A stretch of 64,000 bases of DNA. It comes from a virus. Numbering within the stretch: the stretch's first letter is position 1; every line of letters starts with the position of its first letter. The notes under the pieces were generated by a model, which saw only the letters and a list, made by a program, of their open reading frames with translations, did no database searches and was not told the DNA's origin. The translations under genes and the position numbers were made by a program. The DNA is taken from positions 1 to 64,000 of the IMG/VR virus record IMGVR_UViG_3300033149_006574; one strand, given 5' to 3'. This document shows, piece after piece, positions 8,141 through 55,987 of this stretch.

Positions 8141-9043
8141 TTATGTCCCTATATTTTTAATAACACAATGAAGCTTTGATGCACCTTTAACAGCCAGTGC
8201 CTCATATCCATTTATCCTGAATGCCCTAGCATCTGCAGTAACTTTAACTTCCTCATACCCAATTTCTTTTGCTACTGCCATAACCAGTTTCGAACGGTCC
8301 AGCACAAGTGCGTAACTTGCTGAACCTGAAGGCGTAGCACCATTAGCAACATCTGTCGGTACATAAGCTGATACATAAACAGGAATACCCTTATAGGATA
8401 CCAACTTAACCCCAGGCGTTACTTCTACTTTCTCCCATTCATATTTATATTGACCCCTGAAATACTTATCCAAATTCAATTTATCTCTGGCAGAAATCAC
8501 AATTAGAGTAGGTATTCCACCATTATTCACAATCTTAGAAATTGCTTCATCCAGTGCATCCAATCCATCACTGGAGCCAAGAGAGTTACCATAAAGGTTA
8601 ACTTCCTGTGTTATCTGCTTCCTTAATCCATCAAATTCTTTTGAATTACTTGAAGAATCTCCCTGAATAATAAGTTTCTCTTCTAATTGAGCAAGTGCTT
8701 CTGTTGCTCCTTCAATCTCCGAAGCCCACGGATCCAATATATCTCCGCCTACTTTAAGCATAAGGCCAGAAACCTGCCCTTCTGCTTCTATCATCTTTAT
8801 GGATACAGACTTACGTCCATATGTCGACTGAGTTGCCCCAAAGCTATCAGTCTCATCATATGCTTTTGCTGTTGCCAATGCACTTCTTTCATTCCATTCA
8901 TAAGCATTTGTGGACCATTTTACCCTCTTAATAAGAGTTCTCAATGGACAAATCTTATTCGCCAGTTCTATAAGCTCTGGATCAATTTTTTCTGGAATCA
9001 AAGCTGTTGCATCCGTTGTTAACGCTTTTTCAAGATCAAGCAC
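8141..9043 (-). CDS. Major capsid protein (HK97 fold)
   Basis: A 300-residue major capsid protein, similar in size to other HK97-fold capsid subunits. It shows an N-terminal arm, ICPLRTLIKRVKWSTNAYEW strands, a loop region with SFGATQSTYGRKSVSIKM, a central spine helix (WASEIEGATEALAQLEEKL) and a C-terminal P-domain/A-domain pattern ending in FRINGYEALAVKGASKLHC. The start is a GTG at 9043 preceded by a strong GGAGGTGAT. It follows the protease-scaffold gene, so no separate scaffold is needed. It builds the icosahedral head. Confidence 0.88.
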   Translation of the reverse strand: MLDLEKALTTDATALIPEKIDPELIELANKICPLRTLIKRVKWSTNAYEWNERSALATAKAYDETDSFGATQSTYGRKSVSIKMIEAEGQVSGLMLKVGGDILDPWASEIEGATEALAQLEEKLIIQGDSSSNSKEFDGLRKQITQEVNLYGNSLGSSDGLDALDEAISKIVNNGGIPTLIVISARDKLNLDKYFRGQYKYEWEKVEVTPGVKLVSYKGIPVYVSAYVPTDVANGATPSGSASYALVLDRSKLVMAVAKEIGYEEVKVTADARAFRINGYEALAVKGASKLHCVIKNIGT

Positions 9044-9088: not shown

Positions 9089-10204
9089 TTATTTGCTTTC
9101 TATTTGCTTTTTTAATTTTAAGCGAAGCCTTTGTTCCAATGGAAGGCTGTTCCACTCCTTTTGAAATTCTTCTTTATCAATTTCTTCACTATTTACTAAT
9201 TTCTTTTTTTCATTTCCAGGAATTTTTGATAATACCTGAGTTATTGTTTCTTCAATATCTTTTTTTGTTACTATATTCTTCTGAATCTCCTCCAATGCTT
9301 TTTCGACATTACTTTGTTCCTCATCATCAGAAACTTCTTTTTTCTCACCATAACCATAATCCCCATCTTTTCCTTCTTCCAGTTCAGCTATAAGACCCTG
9401 TAAAATATTAATAATCTTCTTTAATTCAGCGGAAACTTTTTTGACATCGGGATATTTGTCTTTATCCTTAGCTTTTTCGGTATTCTCATCTTTTTGTATC
9501 TCATCTTGCTTAGTCTCGTCCTTCGTCTCTTCTTTTACTTCTTGGTTTGTTTTAACTTCTTCCGTTTTCTCTTCATTCTTCGTCTCATCTGTTTCAGTTT
9601 TCACTTCATTCTCTTCGGGCTTTGTCTCATCCACTTCTTTTTTAACGATTTCACCCATGTTAGGTTCACCTCCTTCTTCGTCGTAATTTTCAAGTGCTTT
9701 ATTCATATACCAAGATACGACCTTACATTTAACATTCGCAGGCAAAGCAACTAAGCTTACCTCCCTAAATGTAAAGTCCAATATCTTTGTAACCCAGCGT
9801 TTAATTTTTTCAGAATATTCTTGTACAACCTTTTTTATGCTTCCCCCGAGACTAAATCCATCTAATATTCCTTCTTTTATCTGTTGCCAGATATCTTTAC
9901 GGGTTTGTGAAATTAAAGCCTTAATCCAGATTTTCGCAGGTTGTTCATCTAGAAATTTATGTTCAACAACTCTACCCACCAATATTTCTGGATTATGTCC
10001 ATATAAAAGCTTATCCCTAGTATCTAAACTACGTTCTGCATTCCGTAACGCTTCAGCTGTAAGATACATTGGAGGTTCCGAATCATCTTCTCCTTCGACA
10101 GCTGCGTAACCTTCTACAAACCATTTTTCTTCTTTCTCTTTCTCGCTTTTTTCTGTCCAGAATTTCTGAACTTTTACCGGAAATTCAAATGGGTATTCTT
10201 TCAT
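9089..10204 (-). CDS. Prohead protease fused to scaffold domain
   Basis: A 371-residue protein. The first ~170 residues carry the HK97 prohead protease (S78) pattern: G-H70 in LLYGHNPEILVGRV and S118 in DGFSLGG, and the beta-rich FREVSLVALPAN end. Residues ~185-260 are an extremely acidic Glu/Lys/Thr repeat tract, followed by helical residues to 371. This is the usual form in which the scaffold is the C-terminal part of the protease. It would guide capsid assembly and then cleave capsid N-termini and itself. It lies directly upstream of the capsid gene. Confidence 0.88.
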   Translation of the reverse strand: MKEYPFEFPVKVQKFWTEKSEKEKEEKWFVEGYAAVEGEDDSEPPMYLTAEALRNAERSLDTRDKLLYGHNPEILVGRVVEHKFLDEQPAKIWIKALISQTRKDIWQQIKEGILDGFSLGGSIKKVVQEYSEKIKRWVTKILDFTFREVSLVALPANVKCKVVSWYMNKALENYDEEGGEPNMGEIVKKEVDETKPEENEVKTETDETKNEEKTEEVKTNQEVKEETKDETKQDEIQKDENTEKAKDKDKYPDVKKVSAELKKIINILQGLIAELEEGKDGDYGYGEKKEVSDDEEQSNVEKALEEIQKNIVTKKDIEETITQVLSKIPGNEKKKLVNSEEIDKEEFQKEWNSLPLEQRLRLKLKKQIESK

Positions 10205-10270: not shown

Positions 10271-12610
10271 TCATTTTGATTTTAATTTCTCCAGGGCCTC
10301 TGGATGCTTTTTATAATACGGTTCTTGATTTTTAGGCTTTGAGAAGACCCATATTCTCTTTCTTTTATCCTTTACTGGAACATATGTTAATATATATCTT
10401 CCATTTAAATATTTACCATGAAAGATGAATTCAAGAAAATGATGTCCATAAGGATAATATTCTACCTGGCTATGTTCTATATCATAAAGATAACCATAAG
10501 TATTAGCAGTTGCACCCACTTCTCCAGGATTTGCAATATATGGAAAATTATTGGGATTTAACCATCCGGGAGGAATTAATTTTTTTAACTCGCATAATGT
10601 TGGCAATCCCTCAAGAACTTTATATTTACTTTTTGGATCTGTATTCCCGGGAGTGTCTAAGGTAAATCCAATCGCAGCTTTCAATGGGGGCATCCAGACC
10701 CTTAGGTCAAGATGAGAAGAATTAGTCTTATCTATAAGTCCTTCAGATTTAATCTTTTGAAAGCTTTTAAAATTAGATGGCTTTCGCTTTTTAAGTACTT
10801 TTATTTCCTCTTCATTCAAACCCCTGATATGTTCCTGCAAAACGAATTTTGTTTTTTTACCTTTACCCAAGAACGTTCTATAGGGATTATCTTCTCCCAC
10901 CATAGCACCACCCTCTTCTCCGGTAAGTGCCTTTTGTAATAGCTCTTCGACAGAAATATCAAGGGTTGAAAAAGAATCAATGGAGTTCACCACTTCTGTA
11001 GAACCCCGTCCGCTTTTAGCAAGTTTTTCAACTTCTCTAATTGAATATGGTTCTTTTTTACCAGGTTCGGTTCCTCTAAATACGGGATTATCCCAGGTAA
11101 TTTTCTTTTTACCATCTTCTTCTTCCAATTTTATTTCTGCTACATAAACTTCAATAATATCACCCACTTTAATGGGTGTTTCTCTAACATTAATGTTATA
11201 TGTTCTGCCAATTTTAACATAATATTTCCCATTATATTCTTCTACATTTTGATACTTTTCTTTCTCCTCATTCTTTAGGGGGCCTATTAAGCCATCACAA
11301 TTTATAATATTTTTCTTTTTAGTTTGATTTATTTTCGAAACAAGAACATTTACAACCTTCCACATCTTGAGCTTTGTCCAAGCAGTAGTCGAGCCGGTCA
11401 AATTATAAACGCTATCTGCCAATTTGAACATTGCCCCTTCGCTATATTTTATATGTGAAACTTCATTAGAGGCCCTCTTAAGAGCCTGTACAGTATTGCA
11501 AATATAATATTTTGTCTGCTTTAGAGGGCCATTTCCTTTTATAATTTGTTTTAAATATTTTTTTCTTTCAAGAAGTGGCATTTGATTCAATGCCTTGCCA
11601 TCAAGGTAAAGAATATCAAAGAAATGAATAAAAACACCTGAATCACTACCAGGATCATTAGAAGTAGCCCACCTGACAAGGTCTTTTCGTGGAACTTGTT
11701 GGTCACCCTTTTTCTCCAGAAGCTCTCCGTCCAAGATAACTTGATTACAGGGAAGACTTTTAAGTGCTTTTACAATTGATGGCAAATATTTGGATCTATC
11801 CTTTTTAGCATCCTCAAAATAAATCAAAACTTTATCGCCATCTCGCTGGCATATTACTCTCAATCCATCGAATTTCTCTTCTACCACAACCCCTATTTTT
11901 AATTTTTCAGGTGTCAGCCACCATTTCATTAATTCATCTAATTCAAAAAATCTGGAGGCATATTCGGAAGGTTTTAATGGTTTGAATTTGGAAAATAATT
12001 TTAATTTTTTCTGAACCTCATCTATCATTTCTGTAACATAATGCCTTCTTAATTCGGGGTATTTAAATAAGCCAAGAGAAAATAATGGAATATAATCATC
12101 ATGTGGCCCTTGAGGATTCCAAATAAAATGCAAATTCTCTCTTATTTCTTTAGGAAACAAACGGGATATCCTAAGTTCCAGTGATTTATCCCTTCGCCAT
12201 TCCTCTGCCCTTATGCAAATATCAATGTCTTCAGGTGCATCCGATTTTACAGATGAACCAACAATACTTATAAAATCTGGAACATAAACAAGCGATCTCA
12301 AATTCTTAACCATTTCAAATAATTCCTTTTTCATCTTACCTTTTTCCTGTGCCTGGCTATGTTTATCCAGATTGTCCATAATACGATGTTTTAATCCTCT
12401 TTTTTTCATTTCCCTTACAACCAACACATGCCATCCTATAACATCCTCTTGAGTATATTTCTCTACATTTTTTCCCCACCATTGATGTAATCTACGATGT
12501 ATATTTAACAATTCTTCGTCAGATATATCAGACAATTTTTGAGGAGTAATTTCAGCAAAAGTCATTTTTATAAAATCTTCCAGCGGTACTTTATTTGTTG
12601 TTACTTTCAT
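10271..12610 (-). CDS. Nucleotidyltransferase, ATP-dependent DNA ligase and LigD-type phosphoesterase fusion
   Basis: A 779-residue multidomain protein. Residues ~20-80 form a helical His/Trp-rich domain. Residues ~105-200 look like a nucleotidyltransferase core (GSS at 118-120, acidic pair D128/D130). Residues ~235-420 are a DNA ligase adenylation domain: motif I K246-F-D-G, FFDILYLDG at 330-338, EGAMFK at 391-396, and KLKMWK at 413-418; an OB-like region follows (~435-500). Residues ~585-765 resemble the LigD 3'-phosphoesterase domain (QEHIRG, HLDLRVWM with H633/D635/R637, and a late LEFIFHGKYLNGRY strand). It overlaps the portal gene by 20 bases and precedes the protease gene, an unusual place for DNA repair. 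It may seal or clean packaged DNA ends; that role is inference. Confidence 0.82.
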   Translation of the reverse strand: MKVTTNKVPLEDFIKMTFAEITPQKLSDISDEELLNIHRRLHQWWGKNVEKYTQEDVIGWHVLVVREMKKRGLKHRIMDNLDKHSQAQEKGKMKKELFEMVKNLRSLVYVPDFISIVGSSVKSDAPEDIDICIRAEEWRRDKSLELRISRLFPKEIRENLHFIWNPQGPHDDYIPLFSLGLFKYPELRRHYVTEMIDEVQKKLKLFSKFKPLKPSEYASRFFELDELMKWWLTPEKLKIGVVVEEKFDGLRVICQRDGDKVLIYFEDAKKDRSKYLPSIVKALKSLPCNQVILDGELLEKKGDQQVPRKDLVRWATSNDPGSDSGVFIHFFDILYLDGKALNQMPLLERKKYLKQIIKGNGPLKQTKYYICNTVQALKRASNEVSHIKYSEGAMFKLADSVYNLTGSTTAWTKLKMWKVVNVLVSKINQTKKKNIINCDGLIGPLKNEEKEKYQNVEEYNGKYYVKIGRTYNINVRETPIKVGDIIEVYVAEIKLEEEDGKKKITWDNPVFRGTEPGKKEPYSIREVEKLAKSGRGSTEVVNSIDSFSTLDISVEELLQKALTGEEGGAMVGEDNPYRTFLGKGKKTKFVLQEHIRGLNEEEIKVLKKRKPSNFKSFQKIKSEGLIDKTNSSHLDLRVWMPPLKAAIGFTLDTPGNTDPKSKYKVLEGLPTLCELKKLIPPGWLNPNNFPYIANPGEVGATANTYGYLYDIEHSQVEYYPYGHHFLEFIFHGKYLNGRYILTYVPVKDKRKRIWVFSKPKNQEPYYKKHPEALEKLKSK

Positions 12611-13901
12611 GCGCTATTTCCTTGAGGCGTTTTGGTGAAAGAACGGCTTCTTCAGCCTTTGAATACGGAATCAAAAGAACATCTCCCCATTCCACTTCAC
12701 TCAAGCCTCTGTCAAGCCTGATCATATTTATGGTTTTAATAAGATTCTTAAGATCGTGTTCTTCAAGCTTAATTTGCTCTGATACATCAAGAGCACCAAG
12801 TGGATTGAATTTTATTTTTGCTTTTGCAGGTTTAAAATATACTTTCAAAAGTTTTCTGTCTATTCTGTTTTTAACGATTCTCTGATATCTTGAAATGACA
12901 AGGGTTCTAAAAAGCGAAATCTGTTGTGATGCATTTTCTTTCGTCCCACCCGAAAGGCCAAGAATAATTGGTTGCATTCTCCAGAGTGCAAAAATCTTTT
13001 CTCTTAAGCCTTCTGCATAAGTCGAAAATTCCATATCTTTATTGGAAAGAGAAACAGGAGTTACTTTAACATTCCCACTGGTAACAAGATTGGCATGTGG
13101 CTTCCCCTTTAATTGAGAATTAAGCAGATCGGTAATTCTTTCAAAATCCTCCTTACTAACATTGCCGACATCTATATGCAATCTTGGAGTAGCATTATTT
13201 TCAAAAAATGCGCCATTATATTGTTCAGCATAAATATCCGATGCTATTACTTTTTGCAATGTTTGAATTGGCGATTTACTATAAATTTCTTCCCCTACTG
13301 ATGGCATTCTGAAATAAATAATTTCATCAGGATCATATTCCTGAGTCACTCTTGCCACTTTTTGAACGAATTTAACAATAGAGCCATTTTTCACTTTAAT
13401 CTTTATTGTTTCAGGTGAAAGGGCATAAATCTTAAAAGGAAATTCAATATCCTGAACTTCTTTCTCAGGGTCTTCAACCTCCTTTACGAATTGAAGGTAT
13501 TTGTTTTTATTAAACGGAACGTACCAATAAGCTACATGATAGAGAGCAAGATTCAAAAATAATTCTTCCAGCAGGTCATCAAAAGTATCTTCTTCATTAG
13601 GCCTTTCCGTGAACTCTTGCAAAACCTCAAGCCAGCGATCATCAATTTTAGTTCCGATTTTGGAAGGAACAAAACGAAAGCCCGCAGCGGTTGCTCCGGA
13701 TGCAATTGCTTCAACCACTGCTCTGACCCAGACATCCTGGTTATAGCATTTCGTAACGGTGGTAAGATTAAATGGAAGTGCTTTCTCTTCAGAGTTTAAA
13801 AAGGAAAATCCTGCAATTGTAGGGACATAAGATTTTTTTATTTCAATTTGTTTTTTTAAATTTTTTGATCCTTTGGGCCGACCTCTTTTCTTTTTAATCA
13901 T
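12591..13901 (-). CDS. Portal protein
   Basis: A 436-residue portal-like protein. It begins with a Lys/Arg-rich segment (KKKRGRPKGSKN), then a typical portal core: VRAVVEAIASGATAAGFRFVP, a wing-like region, the DPDEIIYFRMPS stretch that marks the D/E-I-h-H/Y-F-R pattern of portals, and IYAEQYNGAFFENNATPRLHI, where portals have the F-F-x-N-G/A-x-x-P signature. A C-terminal helical region follows. It is coded between the large terminase and the ligase fusion. The dodecamer forms the DNA entry channel. Confidence 0.9.
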   Translation of the reverse strand: MIKKKRGRPKGSKNLKKQIEIKKSYVPTIAGFSFLNSEEKALPFNLTTVTKCYNQDVWVRAVVEAIASGATAAGFRFVPSKIGTKIDDRWLEVLQEFTERPNEEDTFDDLLEELFLNLALYHVAYWYVPFNKNKYLQFVKEVEDPEKEVQDIEFPFKIYALSPETIKIKVKNGSIVKFVQKVARVTQEYDPDEIIYFRMPSVGEEIYSKSPIQTLQKVIASDIYAEQYNGAFFENNATPRLHIDVGNVSKEDFERITDLLNSQLKGKPHANLVTSGNVKVTPVSLSNKDMEFSTYAEGLREKIFALWRMQPIILGLSGGTKENASQQISLFRTLVISRYQRIVKNRIDRKLLKVYFKPAKAKIKFNPLGALDVSEQIKLEEHDLKNLIKTINMIRLDRGLSEVEWGDVLLIPYSKAEEAVLSPKRLKEIAHESNNK

Positions 13902-13905
13902 ATTT

Positions 13906-15339
13906 TCACACCTCTAACATTTCGAATTGAAAGATACCTCCCTGTTTCTCGAACTGGGGTAATATTTCAGCAACAATAGCACAGCGAAGCATATCCACAT
14001 GATGGTCCTCTTCGTTCGGATAAATTATGGTTCCGTCTTTTGCAGTTGCCCTGGTCGAATTGTGCAATTCATCCAGTAAAGAATAGTCTGAGGAGGGGAC
14101 TTTAATCATATTTTCAATCATTGCTTGCTCAAGTTTCAAAGAGGACCACACTTTGACCCTTTGTGTTATTTTTTTCCCATCTGATGTTTCGCCCAGCTTA
14201 ACATGCTTGCCGAAATTAACTGGAACGAAAGTAAATGGCCCCTCATAATTAATAAGGTCTAAGGCGACAGATTTTCCCGCACCACCCTCATCAATCGCTA
14301 CCCAGCATCCTGGAAAACGATTAATTAAAAATTTAAATAATTCCGTTTGTTGACTATAAATCACGCCATTAAGAATATATTTACCAAATAAATGCAATGC
14401 GCCTTTATCCGTTTTATTCCACAGTCCTATAACGGTGGGACTTGGTGAATAAGCAATATCAGCTGAGATTATTACAGGAGCGGTTTTTGAGATTGGTTCG
14501 GGAACCTCAAGATGTTCGAAATCAATTTTTTGGTCCGCCTGAAAATCCAGATTTACGATTTTGTAATCCTCATACTCAAAATTTGATATAAGATCCAGCG
14601 CTCTTGGTGCAAAGGCTAGATCTCTGAAAGTTTTTGACCATTCTGCAAGCACCTGTGTCCTGTACATAAAGCTCGAGCGACCACCATACATTCTTGCCAG
14701 AAAATCATCCTGCTGTTTGGTATAATCGGGTCGGTCAAATTTAGTAATAGTCTTCTCCTTAAAAAAAGTCTCCTCTTCCAGCGTCCTATAAAGATATGAT
14801 TTTCTCACATCATTTGGCACTCCAAGAACGCGAATTTTTGTATTCGTTTTAAGACAGCCCTGTAATTGTTCCAATGGCTTTGTGGTAAATATCTGTCCCT
14901 CATCTATCCATACGACGTCCGGGTGTAGACCGAAAAAAGTTTTGCCACCCGAAAATCCTGCAACTCTTGAATGTAAAACCGTTTTGTTTTTAAATTGTAT
15001 CAAATAATCGGGGGCTCTTAAAACCCTTTCAACCTGAGTCTTTAAAAAGCTATCGTTTTCAATCCTCAGGATTATTCTGTCCATTGTTGGAGAAAGATGA
15101 GCTTTGTTGGGAGTAGTAAAAAGAAGTTCCCTCTCTTTTTTCTCTGAGTTATCAAGGCATTCCCTTATAATATCAGCTTCCAGTGTTTTTGTTTTACCCA
15201 CGCCCCTTGCGGCGGAAACATGATAAAATTGAAATGCTTTATAACGAATTGATATCCTTTTTTGGTAGTCAAAAGGATCCATCTGATTCCAGAACCAGAA
15301 CCACGAAACAGGATTTTTCACAAGCCAGGCAAGTTTCAT
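13906..15339 (-). CDS. terL: Terminase large subunit (packaging ATPase-nuclease)
   Basis: A 477-residue terminase. The ATPase half has Walker A ARGVGKT (44-50) and Walker B VVWIDEGQ (D146/E147). The nuclease half has ISADIAYS (D294), WVAIDEGGAGKS (D350) and DHHVDMLRCA (D449), matching the three acidic clusters of the RNase H-like nuclease. It cuts concatemeric DNA and pumps it through the portal. It overlaps the zinc-containing upstream gene by four bases and ends five bases before the portal gene. Confidence 0.93.
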   Translation of the reverse strand: MKLAWLVKNPVSWFWFWNQMDPFDYQKRISIRYKAFQFYHVSAARGVGKTKTLEADIIRECLDNSEKKERELLFTTPNKAHLSPTMDRIILRIENDSFLKTQVERVLRAPDYLIQFKNKTVLHSRVAGFSGGKTFFGLHPDVVWIDEGQIFTTKPLEQLQGCLKTNTKIRVLGVPNDVRKSYLYRTLEEETFFKEKTITKFDRPDYTKQQDDFLARMYGGRSSFMYRTQVLAEWSKTFRDLAFAPRALDLISNFEYEDYKIVNLDFQADQKIDFEHLEVPEPISKTAPVIISADIAYSPSPTVIGLWNKTDKGALHLFGKYILNGVIYSQQTELFKFLINRFPGCWVAIDEGGAGKSVALDLINYEGPFTFVPVNFGKHVKLGETSDGKKITQRVKVWSSLKLEQAMIENMIKVPSSDYSLLDELHNSTRATAKDGTIIYPNEEDHHVDMLRCAIVAEILPQFEKQGGIFQFEMLEV

Positions 15340-16055
15340 ATTTTAGGGATTGGGGTAGCGGTAAACCCCTGTAATTCGGGTAAATAATTTAACACTTCTA
15401 TCTCCTGCCCGCAATAAGGACATTTTAAAACATACATTTCTGGATGCAATCTGGACCATTTTTCATATTTTTGAAGCACATCGGCAATAGTATCTTCCAG
15501 CGTCATGGCCTGAGAGTCAGACTTTTGCTTTTCCTCAAGCCTCTGACTTCTCAAAAGAGATAAATCCTTTTGTAGCATCCTGAGCTCTTCCGTAATTTTT
15601 ATAAGTGATTGGTGCAAATAATATTTGTCTTTTGCCGAAGAAGTTGTGGTAAGTGAATAATCAATTCTTTTGGATTCAAGCTCAAGCATAAGCAATCTTG
15701 TCAAAAGCGCCAGATCCGCTGTTTCATAGATCGAGGTATCTTTTAAATATTCGTCTCTTCTTTTGACCCAGAACATTTTTTCCTGCTCATTTTTCAAAAA
15801 TACCACGGACTTATCTGGTGCAGTTTCAATAAAAATATCTTCTTGTTTTTTAGAATCCTTTTCCTTACTCTTTTGCTGAAAAGCTTTAAACTGTTTAAGT
15901 TTCGGGATCACGGACCTGCAGGTCGGACAGAGAGTGGGCAATTGTTTGCCGGGATAGTGAAGGACCCTGAACTTTCTCTTACACTGCTGGCATATCTGCA
16001 CCTTAATCTCGCCTGTGGCTTTTTTCTCAAATTTCTTAATCAAATCTTCAGTCAT
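15336..16055 (-). CDS. Zinc-ribbon protein, candidate terminase small subunit
   Basis: A 239-residue protein with two Cys4-type units: CQQC with CPTC near residues 22-46, and CPYCGQEIEVLNYL near residue 213. Between them is a long helical region (YETADLALLTRLLMLELESKRID, then a coiled coil). The central helices and the position directly before terL fit a small terminase subunit that binds pac/cos DNA. The zinc units are unusual for that family, so it could instead be a separate DNA-binding accessory. Start ATG at 16055 follows GGGGAG. Confidence 0.55.
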   Translation of the reverse strand: MTEDLIKKFEKKATGEIKVQICQQCKRKFRVLHYPGKQLPTLCPTCRSVIPKLKQFKAFQQKSKEKDSKKQEDIFIETAPDKSVVFLKNEQEKMFWVKRRDEYLKDTSIYETADLALLTRLLMLELESKRIDYSLTTTSSAKDKYYLHQSLIKITEELRMLQKDLSLLRSQRLEEKQKSDSQAMTLEDTIADVLQKYEKWSRLHPEMYVLKCPYCGQEIEVLNYLPELQGFTATPIPKI

Positions 16056-24649: not shown

Positions 24650-26011
24650 ATGGAAACAGGTCGAAAATTAGTAAAAATAGCGAATTTGATCCTCACATAT
24701 GAGGAATTTCGAATACCTAAGAAAATAGTTGCAGAAAATTTCATTATAAAGAAAAAGGACTTTGGGTGCATTGTTTACAAATTAAATGGTAGAAAACCTT
24801 TTATCGATATAATCATAAGTAGGACTAAGATACCGGAAGGATTTAAAGCAATAATAAAAGGTTATTTGAATTCAAAAAGTTCTGCTTATAAGGAATTTCT
24901 CGTAAAGCAATATCTTTTCGGTCTTAAAAAGAACAGTCCTCTTTTTAATCCAACAGCAGAAGTTCTTCTAAGTAAGCCCTTTTCAGAAATACTAGAAAAA
25001 GAATTTATTTTTTATGTAGTACAAAGAAAGCCGTGCCTTCTTGCCAAAAAGCCCCTTCTGAGGATTAAAAATTCAGCTCGTCCTGCCTGGATATTTTATC
25101 CCTCATCAAGAATATATATTAAATGGCCACCAATTAGCATTCAGAAATTGGCAAGAATGAAATATTTCCCATCGATAAAAATAGCAGGTTCAATGGTAGC
25201 AGTTCCTATAGGAATGGGAATAAAACTTTTAAAAGATAAAAGTATTCATATTGAGGAGAAGAAAGGAGAATTTTATCTTGTACCCGAAGATATTTTTAAA
25301 AGAATGGAAAATAATGATTCCTTTAAGACAATTTTAAATTTGCTTAAAGAATCTAGAACGGTAGACTTAACTTTCCTATGTGCAAAATACTATTTACTCG
25401 ATTATATTTTAACGATAGCAGATAGATTTGACATTGATACATTTGAAGAAAGGGCTGAATTTGGGGAACTACAGAATTTTTTATTAGACCTTTTTATAGA
25501 ATATATAGCATTTGCTTGTTATAGTGAATTAAAGCACAGCAGAAAAAAAATAGCAGAATCCTGGAGGATAAAACAAATACTAAATAAAAAAGAGTTAAAA
25601 TTATTTAATTGTATACCGATAGATGATGTGCCATCTCAGCGTTCTTTTAGGCTTATTAAATTATTAATAAATTTCCCTGTTGATAATAAAATACCCGATA
25701 TTTTGAAAATGGCTAAGAAATTGTTCTCTTTGCGCTGGGAGAGAGGTTATGGTGGAGAAAAATGGAAAATAATTGCAGATATAGGTTTAAAATATGTTAA
25801 TGAGGACATTAATAAATCTGTTTTTATAGATACCGTATGGAACATTCAGCATAATAACGGAACATTTTTCGATAAGGGAAGGGAATTTTTATACTATGGT
25901 CATGTACGTGATATATTAGATGCGAAAAATGAGGGTGAATGGGAAATATTATTATCGAAATGTCCGCAACTTGCAAAAAAATTATGGGAGGTAAAAAGAT
26001 ATGACAGATAA
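24650..26011 (+). CDS. 453-residue phage protein of unknown function
   Basis: The N-terminal ~220 residues are basic, mixed helix/strand; the middle is helical; the C-terminal ~90 residues carry a recognisable pattern: YGGEKWKIIADIGLKYV, then FIDTVWNIQHNNGTFFDKG and DILDAKNEGE. The W-x-x-x-QHN-G-x-FDK pattern recurs in other phage proteins without known function (from memory). It overlaps the phosphatase gene by 11 bases, so the two are translated together. Confidence 0.6.
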   Translation: METGRKLVKIANLILTYEEFRIPKKIVAENFIIKKKDFGCIVYKLNGRKPFIDIIISRTKIPEGFKAIIKGYLNSKSSAYKEFLVKQYLFGLKKNSPLFNPTAEVLLSKPFSEILEKEFIFYVVQRKPCLLAKKPLLRIKNSARPAWIFYPSSRIYIKWPPISIQKLARMKYFPSIKIAGSMVAVPIGMGIKLLKDKSIHIEEKKGEFYLVPEDIFKRMENNDSFKTILNLLKESRTVDLTFLCAKYYLLDYILTIADRFDIDTFEERAEFGELQNFLLDLFIEYIAFACYSELKHSRKKIAESWRIKQILNKKELKLFNCIPIDDVPSQRSFRLIKLLINFPVDNKIPDILKMAKKLFSLRWERGYGGEKWKIIADIGLKYVNEDINKSVFIDTVWNIQHNNGTFFDKGREFLYYGHVRDILDAKNEGEWEILLSKCPQLAKKLWEVKRYDR

Positions 26012-26795
26012 ACAGAATGAAAAGAAGACAGAAAAAACAGAAAAAATATCAAACAGCAATTTTTATACCGGAGGCTTTTATAATATTGGAAGGTTCTGTG
26101 ACCATAAGCCATTATTAGATGGTTTATTGTTTTGTGGCAGTAAAGCAGAAGCTGAGGAATATTATCGGAAAAATCAGGATGTTAAATTATGGGTTTCATT
26201 AAATGAAAATCCTCAGAAAAATTTACCTTTTGATTCTGAAAATAAATTATTTGCACAAAGAGCTAGAATAATTTACTATCCTATAGAGGATAGAGGGGTT
26301 CCTGTTTATGAAGGATTCTCTTCCTTAATAGATTTGATTTTGGAATATTTAAATAATAAGAAAAAAGTAATAATAAATTGTTTTGGAGGTCATGGGAGGA
26401 CAGGGCTTGTCTTGTGCTGTGTAATGGGCAAACTTAAGCCCGAAATATCAGATATTATAAAATATTGTAGAGACATTTATTGTAAACAAATTATTGAATC
26501 ACTTAAACAGGCAGAATTTGTGTTCAAATTCTTAAACAAGAAGTTACCACAAAAATATGTTGAGGAATTTGATATATCCTGGCCACCAAAAACAAAGCAG
26601 ACCTTTTTTCTTACCGAAAAAGATAAAAAGCAAAAAGAGGATACTATTTCCGAAAATGAGCAAGATGATGAGTATTTCCCTTATTTGAATTGTGGAATCT
26701 GTGGGCGCAGGGGAAATCTTAAGTATGAGCCTAGTCTCCAGATGTATCTATGTAGAAAATGTAGAAGGAGATATTATGCTACAGGGAAAATATAA
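26001..26795 (+). CDS. Dual-specificity/tyrosine phosphatase with zinc ribbon
   Basis: A 264-residue protein. The phosphatase loop C127-F-G-G-H-G-R133-T-G fits CX5R, with a likely general acid D97 in YYPIEDRG about 30 residues before, as in the PTP/DSP fold. The C-terminal ~50 residues hold CGICGRRG and CRKCRRR, a four-Cys zinc ribbon, joined by a Lys/Glu linker. It would remove phosphate from Tyr/Ser/Thr of a host or phage protein, or possibly from RNA. It is coupled to the unknown 453-residue protein. Confidence 0.75.
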   Translation: MTDKQNEKKTEKTEKISNSNFYTGGFYNIGRFCDHKPLLDGLLFCGSKAEAEEYYRKNQDVKLWVSLNENPQKNLPFDSENKLFAQRARIIYYPIEDRGVPVYEGFSSLIDLILEYLNNKKKVIINCFGGHGRTGLVLCCVMGKLKPEISDIIKYCRDIYCKQIIESLKQAEFVFKFLNKKLPQKYVEEFDISWPPKTKQTFFLTEKDKKQKEDTISENEQDDEYFPYLNCGICGRRGNLKYEPSLQMYLCRKCRRRYYATGKI

Positions 26796-31361: not shown

Positions 31362-32150
31362 ATGGAAAATAAAATCAATTCAATTATTTGTGGTGATTCG
31401 TTAGAAGAACTTAAAAAGATAAAAAGTAGGTCTATTGATTTAATTATTACATCGCCCCCATACAATACGGGAATTTCGTATGATAAACATGATGACAGAC
31501 AGGATTATAAAGTATATCTAAATAATATGGCAAAAATATTTGAACAATGTTATCGGATATTGGTTAAAGGCGGTCGCATAGCACTAAATAGTCCCTCAAT
31601 GATTATGCAGCATACAGGTTCAAGAGTAGCATATCTTAGCATTGATTTTTTATTAGCATTGAGAAAAGTTGGGTTTCAAGACCGCGAAATGATAATTTGG
31701 ATTAAGTCAAAGCCATCTAAAATTGGAAATGAATGGGCTATTCTTCCATCAGGGCATAGTACAAGTTGGGGCAGTTGGAAATCAGCTTCTAACCCTAGTA
31801 TAAGGGATGCAAGTGAATTTATAATTGTTATGCATAAGGAAACGCCAAAATTACAAACAAAAGGAATATCAGATATTACAAGAGATCAATTTTTGGCATG
31901 GACGACCAACGCCTTTTATTTTCCACCAGAGACATCTATGCGCAGATTTCATCCAGCTCCATTTCCTTTGGAATTGCCAAGGCGTCTTATTCTATTATAT
32001 TCATGCAAAAATGCGATAATTTTAGATCCATTTTGTGGAATAGGCACCACATGTCTGGCTGCGAAAAGATTAGGTAGAAGATATATTGGGATTGATATTT
32101 CTCCAACATATTGCAGAATTGCTAGAGATAGATTGAACGAGTTGCTTTAA
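31362..32150 (+). CDS. DNA methyltransferase (SPPY type, N4-cytosine or N6-adenine)
   Basis: A 262-residue methyltransferase. The catalytic motif TSPPYN is near the N-terminus (about residue 30) and the AdoMet motif DPFCGIGTT near residue 225, the beta-class order. SPPY is usual for N4-cytosine enzymes. No restriction partner is adjacent. It probably protects phage DNA from host enzymes or marks it; target unknown. Confidence 0.85.
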   Translation: MENKINSIICGDSLEELKKIKSRSIDLIITSPPYNTGISYDKHDDRQDYKVYLNNMAKIFEQCYRILVKGGRIALNSPSMIMQHTGSRVAYLSIDFLLALRKVGFQDREMIIWIKSKPSKIGNEWAILPSGHSTSWGSWKSASNPSIRDASEFIIVMHKETPKLQTKGISDITRDQFLAWTTNAFYFPPETSMRRFHPAPFPLELPRRLILLYSCKNAIILDPFCGIGTTCLAAKRLGRRYIGIDISPTYCRIARDRLNELL

Positions 32151-32154
32151 TTAC

Positions 32155-32189
32155 CCCCTCAGAGCCTCAAATTTGCGATTTAAGAGGGG
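32155..32189. other. Hairpin between methyltransferase and RuvB-like gene
   Basis: CCCCTC (32155-32160) pairs with GAGGGG (32184-32189), with an inner AAAT/ATTT. No T-run follows, so it is at best a weak terminator or processing site. Confidence 0.3.
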
Positions 32190-32230
32190 AAATAGGAAAG
32201 GGAATAGGTAAATAAGAGAGAAGAGAAAAA

Positions 32231-33280
32231 ATGGAAGATAAACAGGAATTAGGGAAGCGATTATTAGATATCGTATTAGATAGAGAGCCAGATTATAATC
32301 CACCAATACTTTTAGGAAAAGATAATTTAAGACCTCAGAGCTTTTCAGATTTCATAGGGCAGGAAAAGGTTAAGGCTCAACTTAAAATTGCGGTAGAAGC
32401 ATCTCAAAAATTATCTACTTCAATAGACCATATTCTTTTAACTTCTTTTTTACCTGGAACGGGAAAAACAACATTAGCTAATATAGTGGCAAAAGAAAGA
32501 AAGGTAAAATTTTATATGGCTAATGCGGGAAGCATAGAGAAATATGTAGATTTATTTTGTTTATTAGGACAAGCCAGAAAGGATAAAAATCCAATTATAT
32601 TCATAGATGAGATACATAATTTAAAAACAGCATTAGCGGAAAGTATTTACAATGTTATGGAAGATCCTAATATGGAATTAACATATGAAGAATCTAACTG
32701 GGGAACAATTAGTTTTAAAATGCCACCATTTACTTTAATAGGTGCAACTGCAGGAAATCAAGGAATGTTACCCTCTCCATTTTTAGATAGATTTGGAATT
32801 AAAATAACATTGGAAGCTTATACAATTGAGGATATTATAAAGTTAATTAAGAAGAATATTAAAAAATTTCATATCAATTTAAATCAAAATGTTATAGAGG
32901 CTTTAGCCCAGATGTCTTGTTACACTCCTCGTCTGGCTAATAATTTACTGAAGCAATTATATAATTATTGTATTGTTAAAAAGATTAAAAATATAACAAT
33001 GAAAGATTTTTCTGCATTTAAGAAATTATATGATTTAGATGATTTAGGGTTAGATATGCCATCCCGTATGATTATTAAGGCATTAGCTGAAAGTCCTAAG
33101 GGTGCATTGGGAATCGATTCCCTTGCCAGAAAAACCCGAATAAATAAAAATACTATGATTCAGATTTATGAACCTAAATTGCTTGCATTGAAATTGATTG
33201 ATTATATGCCACGTGGTCGTGTATTAACACAAATTGGAAAGAGGTATTTTATTGAGAAAATGGATAAAAAGGAGAAATAA
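32231..33280 (+). CDS. RuvB-like Holliday junction ATPase
   Basis: A 349-residue AAA+ ATPase with the RuvB layout: RPQSFSDFIGQEKVKAQL, Walker A P75-G-T-G-K79-T, Walker B IIFIDEIH (D126/E127), sensor LIGATAGNQGMLPSPFLDRFG, and a C-terminal winged helix (ALGIDSLARKTRINKNTMIQIYEPKLLALKLI). Length and the final PRGRVLTQIGKRYF match bacterial RuvB. It drives branch migration of Holliday junctions. No RuvA or RuvC gene is nearby; a PD-(D/E)XK candidate resolvase lies at 50728. Confidence 0.88.
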   Translation: MEDKQELGKRLLDIVLDREPDYNPPILLGKDNLRPQSFSDFIGQEKVKAQLKIAVEASQKLSTSIDHILLTSFLPGTGKTTLANIVAKERKVKFYMANAGSIEKYVDLFCLLGQARKDKNPIIFIDEIHNLKTALAESIYNVMEDPNMELTYEESNWGTISFKMPPFTLIGATAGNQGMLPSPFLDRFGIKITLEAYTIEDIIKLIKKNIKKFHINLNQNVIEALAQMSCYTPRLANNLLKQLYNYCIVKKIKNITMKDFSAFKKLYDLDDLGLDMPSRMIIKALAESPKGALGIDSLARKTRINKNTMIQIYEPKLLALKLIDYMPRGRVLTQIGKRYFIEKMDKKEK

Positions 33281-38851: not shown

Positions 38852-39964
38852 ATGAGATTAACATACAAATACAGACTTTTTCCCGCAAAGAAACACGAGA
38901 CAATTCTTGACAAGACATTGGAAGAATGTCGCTGGCTCTATAATCATTTCCTTAAAGAACGCAAAATTTCCTGGGAAAAGAATAAAAAATCTCTTAATTA
39001 TCATTCTCAAGCAGTATCCATTCCTAAACTTAAAAAGCAAAGACCATCTCTTAATTCCATATATTCTCAGGTCCTGCAGAACGTTGCTATTCGTGTTGAC
39101 CTTGCATTTAAGGCATTCTTCCGCAGAGTTAAATCTGGTGAAAAACCAGGTTATCCTCGCTTCAGAGGACAGGGTAGATATGATTCGTTTTGTTATCCTC
39201 AAACAGGATTCAAGATAATTAAGAATAAACTTAATCTTTCTAAAGTAGGTTCTATTGAAATCAAAATAAAAGGAATTATTAAGAACCTTACTATCAGAAA
39301 ACAGAGAGATAAATGGTATGCCTGTTTTTCCTGTGAAGTTAAGAGTAAACCTCTTAAAGAATCTAAACATGCTATTGGTATAGATATGGGACTTGAAACT
39401 TTTGCCACATTTTCTAATGGCCAAAAGATAGAAAATCCTCGCTTTTTCAAGACAGACCAAAAGGCACTTGCCAGAGCCCAAAGAAAATTGTCTAAACAGA
39501 AAAAAGGTTCTCTTGAAAGAAAGAAAGCTAAAAAGATTGTTGCTCGTATTCACGAAAGAATCTCTAATAGACGAAATAACTTTTGCCATCAGGAAGCAAG
39601 AAAGATTATCAATCGCTTTGGTATAATTTGTATTGAAGATTTGTCTATCAATCAAATGCAAAGAGACAACTTCAGAAGTATTAACAGGAGCATTGACGAT
39701 GTAGCGTGGGGACAATTTGCTCAATATCTCTCCTACAAAGCAGAATACGCTGGTAGGCAATTGATAAGAGTAAATCCTGCTTATACATCGCAAACTTGTT
39801 CTCGGTGCGGACAAAGACAAAAACTTAAATTGTCTGAACGTGTATATCATTGCAACTCCTGTGGTTTTTCGCTTGACCGAGATATAAATGCTTCTCTAAA
39901 CATTTTGAGATTGGGAACACAATCTCTTGGTATCCAATCCATAGAAGCCCCTTCCGTCAGGTAG
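38852..39964 (+). CDS. tnpB: TnpB RNA-guided nuclease
   Basis: A 370-residue TnpB. The RuvC-like active site is complete: D178 (GIDMG), E262 (CIEDLS) and D344 (DRDINAS). The zinc finger has C316/C319 (CSRCG) and C334/C337 (CNSCG). The N-terminal KYRLFPAKKHETILDKTLEECRWLYN is the usual start. TnpB cuts DNA matched by an RNA from the element's right end, next to a short TAM, and helps keep the element. All key residues are intact, so it is probably active. Confidence 0.95.
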   Translation: MRLTYKYRLFPAKKHETILDKTLEECRWLYNHFLKERKISWEKNKKSLNYHSQAVSIPKLKKQRPSLNSIYSQVLQNVAIRVDLAFKAFFRRVKSGEKPGYPRFRGQGRYDSFCYPQTGFKIIKNKLNLSKVGSIEIKIKGIIKNLTIRKQRDKWYACFSCEVKSKPLKESKHAIGIDMGLETFATFSNGQKIENPRFFKTDQKALARAQRKLSKQKKGSLERKKAKKIVARIHERISNRRNNFCHQEARKIINRFGIICIEDLSINQMQRDNFRSINRSIDDVAWGQFAQYLSYKAEYAGRQLIRVNPAYTSQTCSRCGQRQKLKLSERVYHCNSCGFSLDRDINASLNILRLGTQSLGIQSIEAPSVR

Positions 39965-43118: not shown

Positions 43119-44441
43119 ATGGCTTCCAAAGAAATATTTCAGGATAAAGAAGCTGAAGAAGCTTTACTTGGTTGTTTCCTAATAGATAACAATATTTTAG
43201 ACCTTGCTCTTAGTTATTTAAAAAAGGAAGATTTTTATTTTAAAAAAAATCAATTTCTCTTTGAGCAAATGCTCAAAGTATATAAAAAGCAAGGTGCATT
43301 TGATTATGTTATATTATATCCATTAGTAAAACAACAAATATCCTCACAAGAACTTCTTGATTTAATGGAAAAGCCATCGACAGTTCAGATGGCAAATGCT
43401 TATCTAAAGCGTATAAAAATCCTCTCCTGTGAAAGACAAATACAGAATCTTGTTTTAAAATTACAAGGACAAAGTCAGTCAATAGATAACGTTCAGCTAA
43501 CAGAAAAAATAGGATTATTAAAAACAGAACTTAATAAAATAGAAAATGAATTAAATCTAGAAGAAGAATTTAATTTTCAAAAGGATTTAACCGAAACGCT
43601 GGAAATAACTGAAGAATTAACAAAAAAAGAATCATTAGCATTTCCAACAAATATACATATCTTTGACAAACATTTTGGAGGATTTCATAGACAAAGAATC
43701 TATATTCTTGGTGCAAGACCGGGGCATGGTAAAACCTCTTTCTTAGCATGGTTTACTGCTAATATTAGTAAATATGGATATAAAGTACTTTATATCAGTC
43801 CAGAAATGGCTAAAAAAGACCTTATTTTAAGAATGCTCTGTAGTCAGTCAAATATTGAGAATCGGATACTGGAGAATCCTAAACTATTAACAGAAGAAAA
43901 TTGGAAAGTTATAACAAATACTGCGGCTAAGATGTATGATTATAAAATAGCCATTTATGATAAAAAATGTTCCATTCAACATGTAAATTTTCTTGCCCAA
44001 AAAATAAAACCAGATATTTTAATTATTGATTACATACAGCATATGCAATTTAAAAGTATGGAATTTCGTGCTATAGAGATTAATAATATTATGAATGAGC
44101 TTAAAAATATAGCTAAAGAAAATAATTGCAGTGTTATTATAGCTAGTCAGATAAGCAGACAGATAGAGGAAAGGCAATCTAAACTACCAATGTCAAGTGA
44201 TTATAAAAGCTCTGGGAGTATAGAAGAAGGTGGAGATATGGCTATGTTTTTATTATGGCCATATAAATTTAATTTAAGAAATAATCCTAAAACACATTCT
44301 CCCTGGCAGGAAGAAGATAAACATATAATCACGATAGTTATATCGAAAAATAGATTTGGTCCGACAGGAGATTTTGAGTTAAGATTCAATTATGAGAATT
44401 ATTCTTTTGAAAATTTACAATTACTAAAAGGAGGAAGTTAA
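43119..44441 (+). CDS. Replicative DNA helicase (DnaB family)
   Basis: A 440-residue DnaB-like helicase. The N-terminal helical domain (DKEAEEALLGCFLID) is followed by the RecA-like domain: Walker A GARPGHGKT (198-206), YISPEMAKKDLILRM, Walker B PDILIIDYIQ, SVIIASQISR, and a late arginine-type KNRFGPTG segment. It unwinds DNA at the phage fork. The loader-like gene is immediately upstream. Confidence 0.92.
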   Translation: MASKEIFQDKEAEEALLGCFLIDNNILDLALSYLKKEDFYFKKNQFLFEQMLKVYKKQGAFDYVILYPLVKQQISSQELLDLMEKPSTVQMANAYLKRIKILSCERQIQNLVLKLQGQSQSIDNVQLTEKIGLLKTELNKIENELNLEEEFNFQKDLTETLEITEELTKKESLAFPTNIHIFDKHFGGFHRQRIYILGARPGHGKTSFLAWFTANISKYGYKVLYISPEMAKKDLILRMLCSQSNIENRILENPKLLTEENWKVITNTAAKMYDYKIAIYDKKCSIQHVNFLAQKIKPDILIIDYIQHMQFKSMEFRAIEINNIMNELKNIAKENNCSVIIASQISRQIEERQSKLPMSSDYKSSGSIEEGGDMAMFLLWPYKFNLRNNPKTHSPWQEEDKHIITIVISKNRFGPTGDFELRFNYENYSFENLQLLKGGS

Positions 44442-55285: not shown

Positions 55286-55987
55286 ATGGAAAGAATTTGC
55301 ATTGGCTCCATTATTAGGGATAGAGAATGGATTCTACCCGCCTTTTTCAATCATATATTAAACATAGAATATCCAAAGGAAAAAATAGATTTAATATTTC
55401 TCTTTAATGATATATCTGATAATTCACTAGATTGCGTTCCATTGGCTTCTTTGAGAGATTATCATTCATTAAATTTGTTTAACCTATATTTTGGTGCTCA
55501 ACCAGATCGAAGGGATGGAAAAAGAAGACAAAGATTCAAGCATTTCGCATTCTTGAGAAATACTTTAAAAGATTATTTCCTTTTACTTACTAAAGCTAAA
55601 TATCTCCTCAGTATAGATAGCGATATATTAGTTTATCCCAAAGCGCTAGAAATATTATTATCACAACAAAAAGATATTATCTCGGCATTAATCACTAATG
55701 ATTATGGAAGGGGAAAATATACAAATGCATTAATGCAAATAGATATTGGAAAGTATAAACATTTAGATTTTGAACAACCTATTTTGCAATGCATCCCTTG
55801 CGATGTAACCGGTGCCTGTTGTCTTATAAAAAGAGAAGTATTTGAAAAAGGTGTTCATTGGGACTATGATTCCTGGGGAGAGGATATTTATTTTTCTAAT
55901 CAAGCAAGGGAAATGGGATTTAATTTATTTACCATAAAAGGGATAGCAAGACATATCATGGGACCAGAAATGCTAGCCCAGAAGTGA
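55286..55987 (+). CDS. Glycosyltransferase (GT-A fold)
   Basis: A 233-residue protein. It opens IGSIIRDREWILPAFFNHIL, has D111-S-D113 (the metal-binding DxD) and CDVTGACCLIKREVF, then WGEDIYFSNQAREMG, the acceptor-side E-D pattern. This is a family 2-like glycosyltransferase. It may modify phage DNA bases, cell surface or virion proteins. Its TGA stop falls inside the inverted repeat at 55984-56021. Confidence 0.75.
   Translation: MERICIGSIIRDREWILPAFFNHILNIEYPKEKIDLIFLFNDISDNSLDCVPLASLRDYHSLNLFNLYFGAQPDRRDGKRRQRFKHFAFLRNTLKDYFLLLTKAKYLLSIDSDILVYPKALEILLSQQKDIISALITNDYGRGKYTNALMQIDIGKYKHLDFEQPILQCIPCDVTGACCLIKREVFEKGVHWDYDSWGEDIYFSNQAREMGFNLFTIKGIARHIMGPEMLAQK

Follow-up and report, generated by a model that had tools for sequence, protein, structure and literature searches.

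The window analysed in this study is a stretch of 64,000 nucleotides (positions 1 to 64,000) of the viral record IMGVR_UViG_3300033149_006574 in IMG/VR, a record of 76.6 kb. A single open frame of 779 codons, starting with ATG at 12610 and stopping at 10271 on the minus strand, encodes the protein P0001. The initial annotation had recognised this 779-residue frame at 10271-12610 and had left out its strand; a plus-strand reading of 10271-12610 was ruled out by many stops in the span. The gene lies among head genes, which are arranged as follows.

8141..9043, minus strand, major capsid protein (P0004; phrog_212 6.5e-22, PF17236 2.9e-13)
9089..10204, minus strand, head maturation protease with an acidic, coiled, scaffold-like C-terminal part (P0003; phrog_9427 3.2e-15; 34% identity to the protease of relative L003)
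10271..12610, minus strand, fusion protein of nucleotidyltransferase-like, ATP-dependent DNA ligase and LigD-phosphoesterase-like parts (P0001, 779 aa)
12591..12610, minus strand, overlap of the portal 3' end with the fusion-gene 5' end, 20 nt
12591..13901, minus strand, portal protein (P0002; PF04860 1.2e-37, phrog_12 1.4e-44)
13906..15339, minus strand, terminase large subunit-like protein (P0005; 34% identity to the TerL-like ORF next to the portal gene in L003)
15336..16055, minus strand, zinc-ribbon protein (Zn_ribbon_8 3e-4, below cut-off)

All these genes share one direction, and the fusion gene is followed immediately by those of the head maturation protease and the major capsid protein. 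Its overlap with the portal gene, proposed earlier, was confirmed at 20 nt, with the portal ORF ending at 12591 and the fusion ATG at 12610. The ribosome-binding-like sequence AAGGAAAT precedes the fusion-gene ATG, and the protease gene has an AGGAGG of its own. P0005 by itself gave no significant match to Pfam or PHROG profiles, and P0001 had no matching family in PHROGs. Judged by its position, the zinc-ribbon protein may be a small terminase or packaging partner.

P0001 was divided into the following segments, all on the minus strand.

12329..12553, minus strand, N-terminal helical region (residues 20-94), present too in L003, L006 and L008
12011..12328, minus strand, minimal Pol-beta-type nucleotidyltransferase-like (NT) segment (residues 95-200; G118-S119...D128-I-D130; third acid replaced by Ser; matches weak, consistent)
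11336..11938, minus strand, ligase adenylation domain (residues 225-425; K246 in motif I, E296, D332 in motif III, E391 in motif IV, K413/K415 in motif V)
11051..11323, minus strand, probable ligase OB-fold part (residues 430-520; motif VI just partly recognisable)
10334..10888, minus strand, LigD 3'-phosphoesterase-like (PE) domain (residues 575-759; Q592, H594, H633, D635 and R637 kept; LigD His84 replaced by I679 and Tyr88 by W683)

Judged from its sequence, the middle of P0001 is a DNA ligase which retains the catalytic residues and is probably related to the ligase domain of LigD in non-homologous end joining (NHEJ). Residues 240-415 matched PF01068 above its cut-off (3.3e-25). The top NCBIfam models were DNA ligase D (TIGR02776, 2e-23) and the NHEJ ligase domain (TIGR02779, 2.4e-23), both with scores of 83 bits, far under the curated cut-offs of 373 and 228, respectively. 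The closest PDB sequence was the archaeal DNA ligase 3gde (1e-15). The AlphaFold model of P0001 has a mean pLDDT of 76.6, mostly 80-95 in the ligase part, and a Foldseek search with it returned DNA ligases throughout the matches listed (3rr5, 1.7e-20). Among 56 aligned members, K246, D248 and G249 (the motif I lysine and KxDG) are present in all, E296, E391, G392 and K396 in 55 (the remaining one is a gap), K413 in 54 (two gaps) and D332 in 54; the residues of motifs II, IV and V are kept in every member that has the position. A beta-rich domain is predicted at residues 430-520, where the basic residues of motif VI are variable and poorly conserved across the 56 members. The ligase proposed initially from K246-F-D-G and later motifs is thus borne out by the PF01068 match, the fold match and the essentially invariant motif residues.

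The C-terminal part required a profile built from the corresponding domains of eight relatives, which matched the LigD 3'-phosphoesterase structures 3p4h (1.2e-9) and 3p43 (2.2e-8), with 3n9b and 2lj6 at about 2e-3. The gathering score of PF13298 was exceeded by relative L007, while the window copy alone stayed below it. In LigD, His42, His48 and Asp50 coordinate Mn, while Arg52, His84 and Tyr88 bind the phosphate (PMC8656161). The P0001 counterparts of His42, His48, Asp50 and Arg52 are H594, H633, D635 and R637, respectively; the first three are found in all of 33 PE domains and R637 in 32. The His84 counterpart is Gln, Glu, Ile or another residue, and that of Tyr88 is Trp in 32 of the 33. 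We therefore read the PE domain as a branch of the superfamily in which the metal site is intact and the phosphate-binding side changed. Since both the His84 and Tyr88 counterparts are replaced, 3'-phosphatase activity may be lost or altered. The earlier assignment of a LigD-type phosphoesterase accordingly stands at the superfamily level, with its HxDxR motif and profile matches, and fails against LigD itself, where His84 (Q/E/I) and Tyr88 (W) are not kept. The distinct branch has the signature QxH-xRG...HxDxR...PxxW...PGxVGAT and may be a useful enzyme. In the marine members the domain is a degenerate remnant in which HxDxR is absent. The PE alignment by itself was too variable for a collection scan.

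The NT segment is probably a minimal nucleotidyltransferase fold, and we claim the domain at the motif level only. The G of G[GS] and the DxD are invariant in 26 relatives; the third acid is Ser in the window, L003, L062 and L086, Arg or Lys in another clade and Asp in most others. Sequence matches (TdT, minimal NTases, NTP_transf_2) were consistent and below significance. The modelled segment (pLDDT 82.8) retrieved minimal NTases as its top Foldseek matches, MntA-type first, with E >= 0.066, which is not significant. Catalysis by the window copy is doubtful on these residues. The initial description of P0001 as a three-enzyme fusion was right about three domains, while the NT segment of the window has no third acidic residue, so that the protein may comprise two enzymes.

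The replaced His84 and Tyr88 counterparts, the lost third acid of NT and the degenerate marine PE would suit a non-catalytic assembly factor or scaffold made from repurposed enzyme folds. We give this reading the smallest chance of all those weighed here, as the ligase catalytic residues are essentially invariant (56 members), the PE metal ligands are invariant (33 domains), and inteins are inserted beside ligase motif I and within NT. One intein (L056:2-4786) lies directly before ligase motif I (GIV/C...HN/CQKKYDG) and the other (L060:283-4293) inside the nucleotidyltransferase domain; both have LAGLIDADG and weak intein-splicing matches. Inteins typically occupy conserved catalytic sites. 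In the one close pair tested (L006/L035), the NT, ligase and PE domains had dN/dS values of 0.05-0.08, as under purifying selection. Because homologues exist and dN/dS is this low, the P0001 ORF is not a chance frame.

Relatives were collected by scans of IMG/VR and of bacterial and archaeal genomes, and ANMV-1 was added. The module was found at 55 further virus loci (including ANMV-1), in both bacterial-looking and archaeal viruses; once the window is counted, the collection contains 49 ligases that are below 95% identity, and 22 that are below 60%. Among the loci, L030-L033 come from genome bins of ANME archaea. The methane-seep archaeal virus ANMV-1 encodes the same three-domain protein directly after the portal; its two genes are labelled 'ATP-dependent DNA ligase' and 'MutT-like phage hydrolase' in GenBank. 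A scan limited to the closest pair returned L004 alone, which is the contig of L003, and no nearer relative of the window in IMG/VR. The plasmid matches were rejected as module members, being generic cellular LigD-type ligases, mostly with the ligase part alone. In one ANME-bin contig (L031:647-6919) the ligase ORF ends early and the PE domain is found in another ORF, some 3.5 kb further downstream and separated from the first by several ORFs of unassigned function; this is a rearranged copy, and L030 of the same bin is intact.

The placement between portal and protease, noted initially for the window, proved to be conserved across very divergent viruses: 50 of the 55 relatives have a head gene (terminase, portal, MuF, protease or capsid) at most five ORFs from the ligase, or in the same ORF, counted with gene-map seeds derived partly from the same loci. 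The head-gene calls of the neighbours agreed with independent PHROG models in the samples compared. Among the control viral ligases without NT or PE that were tested, three had no clear head neighbour and a fourth family (L027) was beside TerL and portal; the controls support the head-position pattern, though not cleanly. The ligase of L026-L029, which include L027, is an unrelated viral enzyme of 585 aa with no NT or PE, encoded directly upstream of TerL and portal.

An ordinary replicative or repair ligase whose gene came by chance into a structural operon would agree with the single ligase (PF01068) gene of the 76.6 kb window record and of most other records, and the magroviral ligase is listed in a replication block (PMC10160649). 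With one ligase in its record, the window virus may use P0001 in replication. We consider the chance-placement reading improbable, because the same position and fusions are met again in head modules that differ widely and because PE and NT domains are foreign to replicative ligases. Moreover, three marine archaeal-type virus contigs of 64-94 kb (L014, L017 and L020) encode an ordinary ligase of 513-515 aa elsewhere, away from the head module, in addition to the head-module ligase of 975-1005 aa; thus the latter is not simply replicative. The size and gene content of these contigs resemble magroviruses (PMC10160649), and related marine members have haloarchaeal-virus-like capsids.

The relation to the head is closest where the genes are joined. 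In 18 of the 55 relatives (for example L005, L006, L038, L039, L041, L042 and L077) the ligase-PE protein is continuous, in one reading frame, with a head maturation protease of XkdF type; where tested, the Pfam XkdF match was between 2e-22 and 4e-32. When the ligase domain was placed on a quick maximum-likelihood tree, at least three changes between the fused and separate states were needed, the long branches leaving deep nodes unsure; L005, which is fused, is the sister of the pair formed by the window and L003. The conserved head placement together with the in-frame protease fusion supports incorporation of the protein in the particle. Further domains are carried by several members: a D12 adenine methyltransferase is co-fused in L007, L041 and L042, a C5 cytosine methylase in L039, a metallo-beta-lactamase (MBL) hydrolase in L005, L046 and L053, and a 2H domain in L038 and L039. 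ASCH-like domains were named by eye in L003, L046 and L053; such a domain forms the C-terminus of the portal protein in L033, and the N-terminus of the ligase protein in L032 and L003. In the isolated halovirus HVTV-1, the corresponding slot, flanked by the head-assembly and prohead protease genes, is filled by gp115 (L048:2623-6564), 1313 aa, annotated as zeta toxin; inspection by eye found no ligase or PE domain in gp115 or gp119. The N-terminal part of about 310 aa in L038:5927-9832, which is fused to ligase, PE and head protease, looked tRNA-guanine transglycosylase/DpdA-like by eye and had no family match.

LigD-type PE acts on 3' ends including ribonucleotide and phosphate ends. A device in which NT, ligase and phosphoesterase repair RNA ends, such as those of tRNAs cut by host anticodon nucleases, would fit this activity as well as the 2H (LigT-like) or tRNA-guanine-transglycosylase-like domains of some members and an RNA_ligase match of 5e-7 in the marine group. 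It is nevertheless very improbable in our estimate, since sequence and fold indicate DNA ligases of archaeal Lig1 and LigD type and DNA methyltransferases are co-fused. With a DNA-ligase-type ligase and DNA methyltransferases on the same polypeptide, DNA is the likelier substrate; the D12 and C5 enzymes point to a DNA substrate and to protection of incoming DNA.

The main rival places the enzyme in the producing cell, as a late-acting ligase which, while DNA is being packaged or earlier, seals nicks and repairs concatemer ends at the motor, and which need not leave with the genome. Nicked DNA obstructs some packaging motors, and the 20-nt portal overlap and the adjacency of portal and terminase would fit such a role. 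We consider it unlikely on balance, as it leaves both the in-frame maturation-protease fusion and the co-fused methyltransferase, MBL, 2H and transglycosylase-like domains unexplained.

In tailed viruses, the maturation protease works inside the procapsid. A polypeptide which ends in this protease should therefore enter the procapsid, so that encapsidation is the most economical reading. We propose that P0001 is a multidomain DNA-repair protein of the 'polyvalent' type, which would be assembled into the virion and enter the cell along with the genome, whose ends it would protect, repair or join; the chances for and against this proposal seem to us evenly balanced. The protein would be drawn into the procapsid together with portal and maturation protease, as covalent cargo where they form one polypeptide. 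Action of the protease during maturation would then free the ligase-PE protein inside the head, and the released protein would leave the head with the DNA. Injection with DNA is suggested by the logic of polyvalent proteins (PMC5512222). In the new cell, where no Ku would take part, PE would clean blocked 3' ends and the ligase would seal nicks, gaps or genome ends in the viral DNA that has arrived. The methyltransferase, transglycosylase-like, MBL, 2H or ASCH modules of other members would add protection against host defences.

A wider form of this proposal is somewhat less probable in our view, though a serious candidate. It holds that a Ku-independent kit for end repair and joining is widespread in the heads of archaeal and bacterial tailed viruses, in which ligase-PE would be cargo of the maturation protease, released by it and mending or circularising the genome on entry, while methyltransferase, transglycosylase-like and MBL modules would be swapped to match host defences. 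Ku was not found in the window record or in the records of 13 relatives, all of which may be incomplete.

Packaging and injection are likely for the polyvalent proteins of portal-terminase phages, which carry assemblin-like peptidases at their C-termini (PMC5512222, Iyer et al. 2017). Like them, the P0001 family combines at least two disparate domains in portal-terminase viruses and is encoded with virion genes. The likeness extends to large multidomain proteins encoded among head genes, to Pol-beta NTase, DNA methylase and 2H domains, and to a C-terminal head-type peptidase in some members (PMC5512222). In contrast, the main text of PMC5512222 does not mention a DNA ligase or LigD-PE and describes such proteins as scarce in archaea, whereas ligase and PE are the constant core here and archaeal viruses are well represented. 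The MuF-fused virion effectors and HVTV-1 gp115 offer a further parallel, as enzymes whose delivery relies on being fused to portal, MuF and protease genes or encoded next to them (PMC5512222, PMC9503650), but belong to other enzyme classes (ARTs, zeta-toxin kinase, RNases).

Compared with bacterial LigD, the ligase domain of P0001 has LigD ligase models as its nearest, at scores below their cut-offs, and its PE belongs to the LigD 3'-phosphoesterase superfamily, both on one polypeptide. The differences are a Pol-beta-like NT in place of the archaeo-eukaryotic primase (AEP)-type POL, of which Pfam gave no match in P0001, the replaced His84 and Tyr88 of PE, and the viral head context. The stand-alone PE proteins of archaea and others (3p4h, 3p43, 2lj6) are the best structural relatives of PE by sequence, but are cellular and have the His84-type site, as seen in the 3p4h and 3p43 alignments. 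The mycobacteriophages Omega and Corndog bring Ku and borrow the host LigD for end joining of incoming genome ends, whereas here the virus brings ligase and PE, and no Ku was found.

The literature covered on portal or protease genes with ligase or LigD, with subscription papers mostly outside its scope, described no ligase-PE-protease module. The initial remark that no phage system of this form had been described therefore holds for the ligase/PE theme, which was not found in PMC5512222, and does not hold for virion-injected polyvalent proteins with a C-terminal head-type protease, which are known. Virion-associated multidomain enzyme proteins are likewise known; within this incomplete literature scope, no description was found of the ligase-PE core, the recurrent protease fusion, the spread in archaeal viruses or the variant PE site. 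The theme of injected multidomain proteins would be extended to archaeal viruses. DNA entering cells has been squeezed, ejected and exposed to nucleases, and the co-carriage of repair enzymes by viruses has seen little testing. The fusion of a ligase and an end-healing domain to a head protease in many lineages makes the question of repair cargo directly testable.

Several other genes of the window were observed. At 31362-33280 (plus strand), an N6/N4 DNA methylase adjoins a Holliday-junction helicase of RuvB type in which the three RuvB domains are all present, and a DnaB-like helicase is encoded at 43119-44441; together these genes suggest a bacterial host. An IS605 OrfB/TnpB-type gene (38852-39964, plus strand; PF01385, PF07282) has a 330-aa ORF on the opposite strand. 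A dual-specificity/PTP-type phosphatase gene lies at 26001-26795 (plus strand; PF22785 2.3e-8), and an Anp1-family glycosyltransferase-like gene at 55286-55987 (plus strand; PF03452 3.9e-13).
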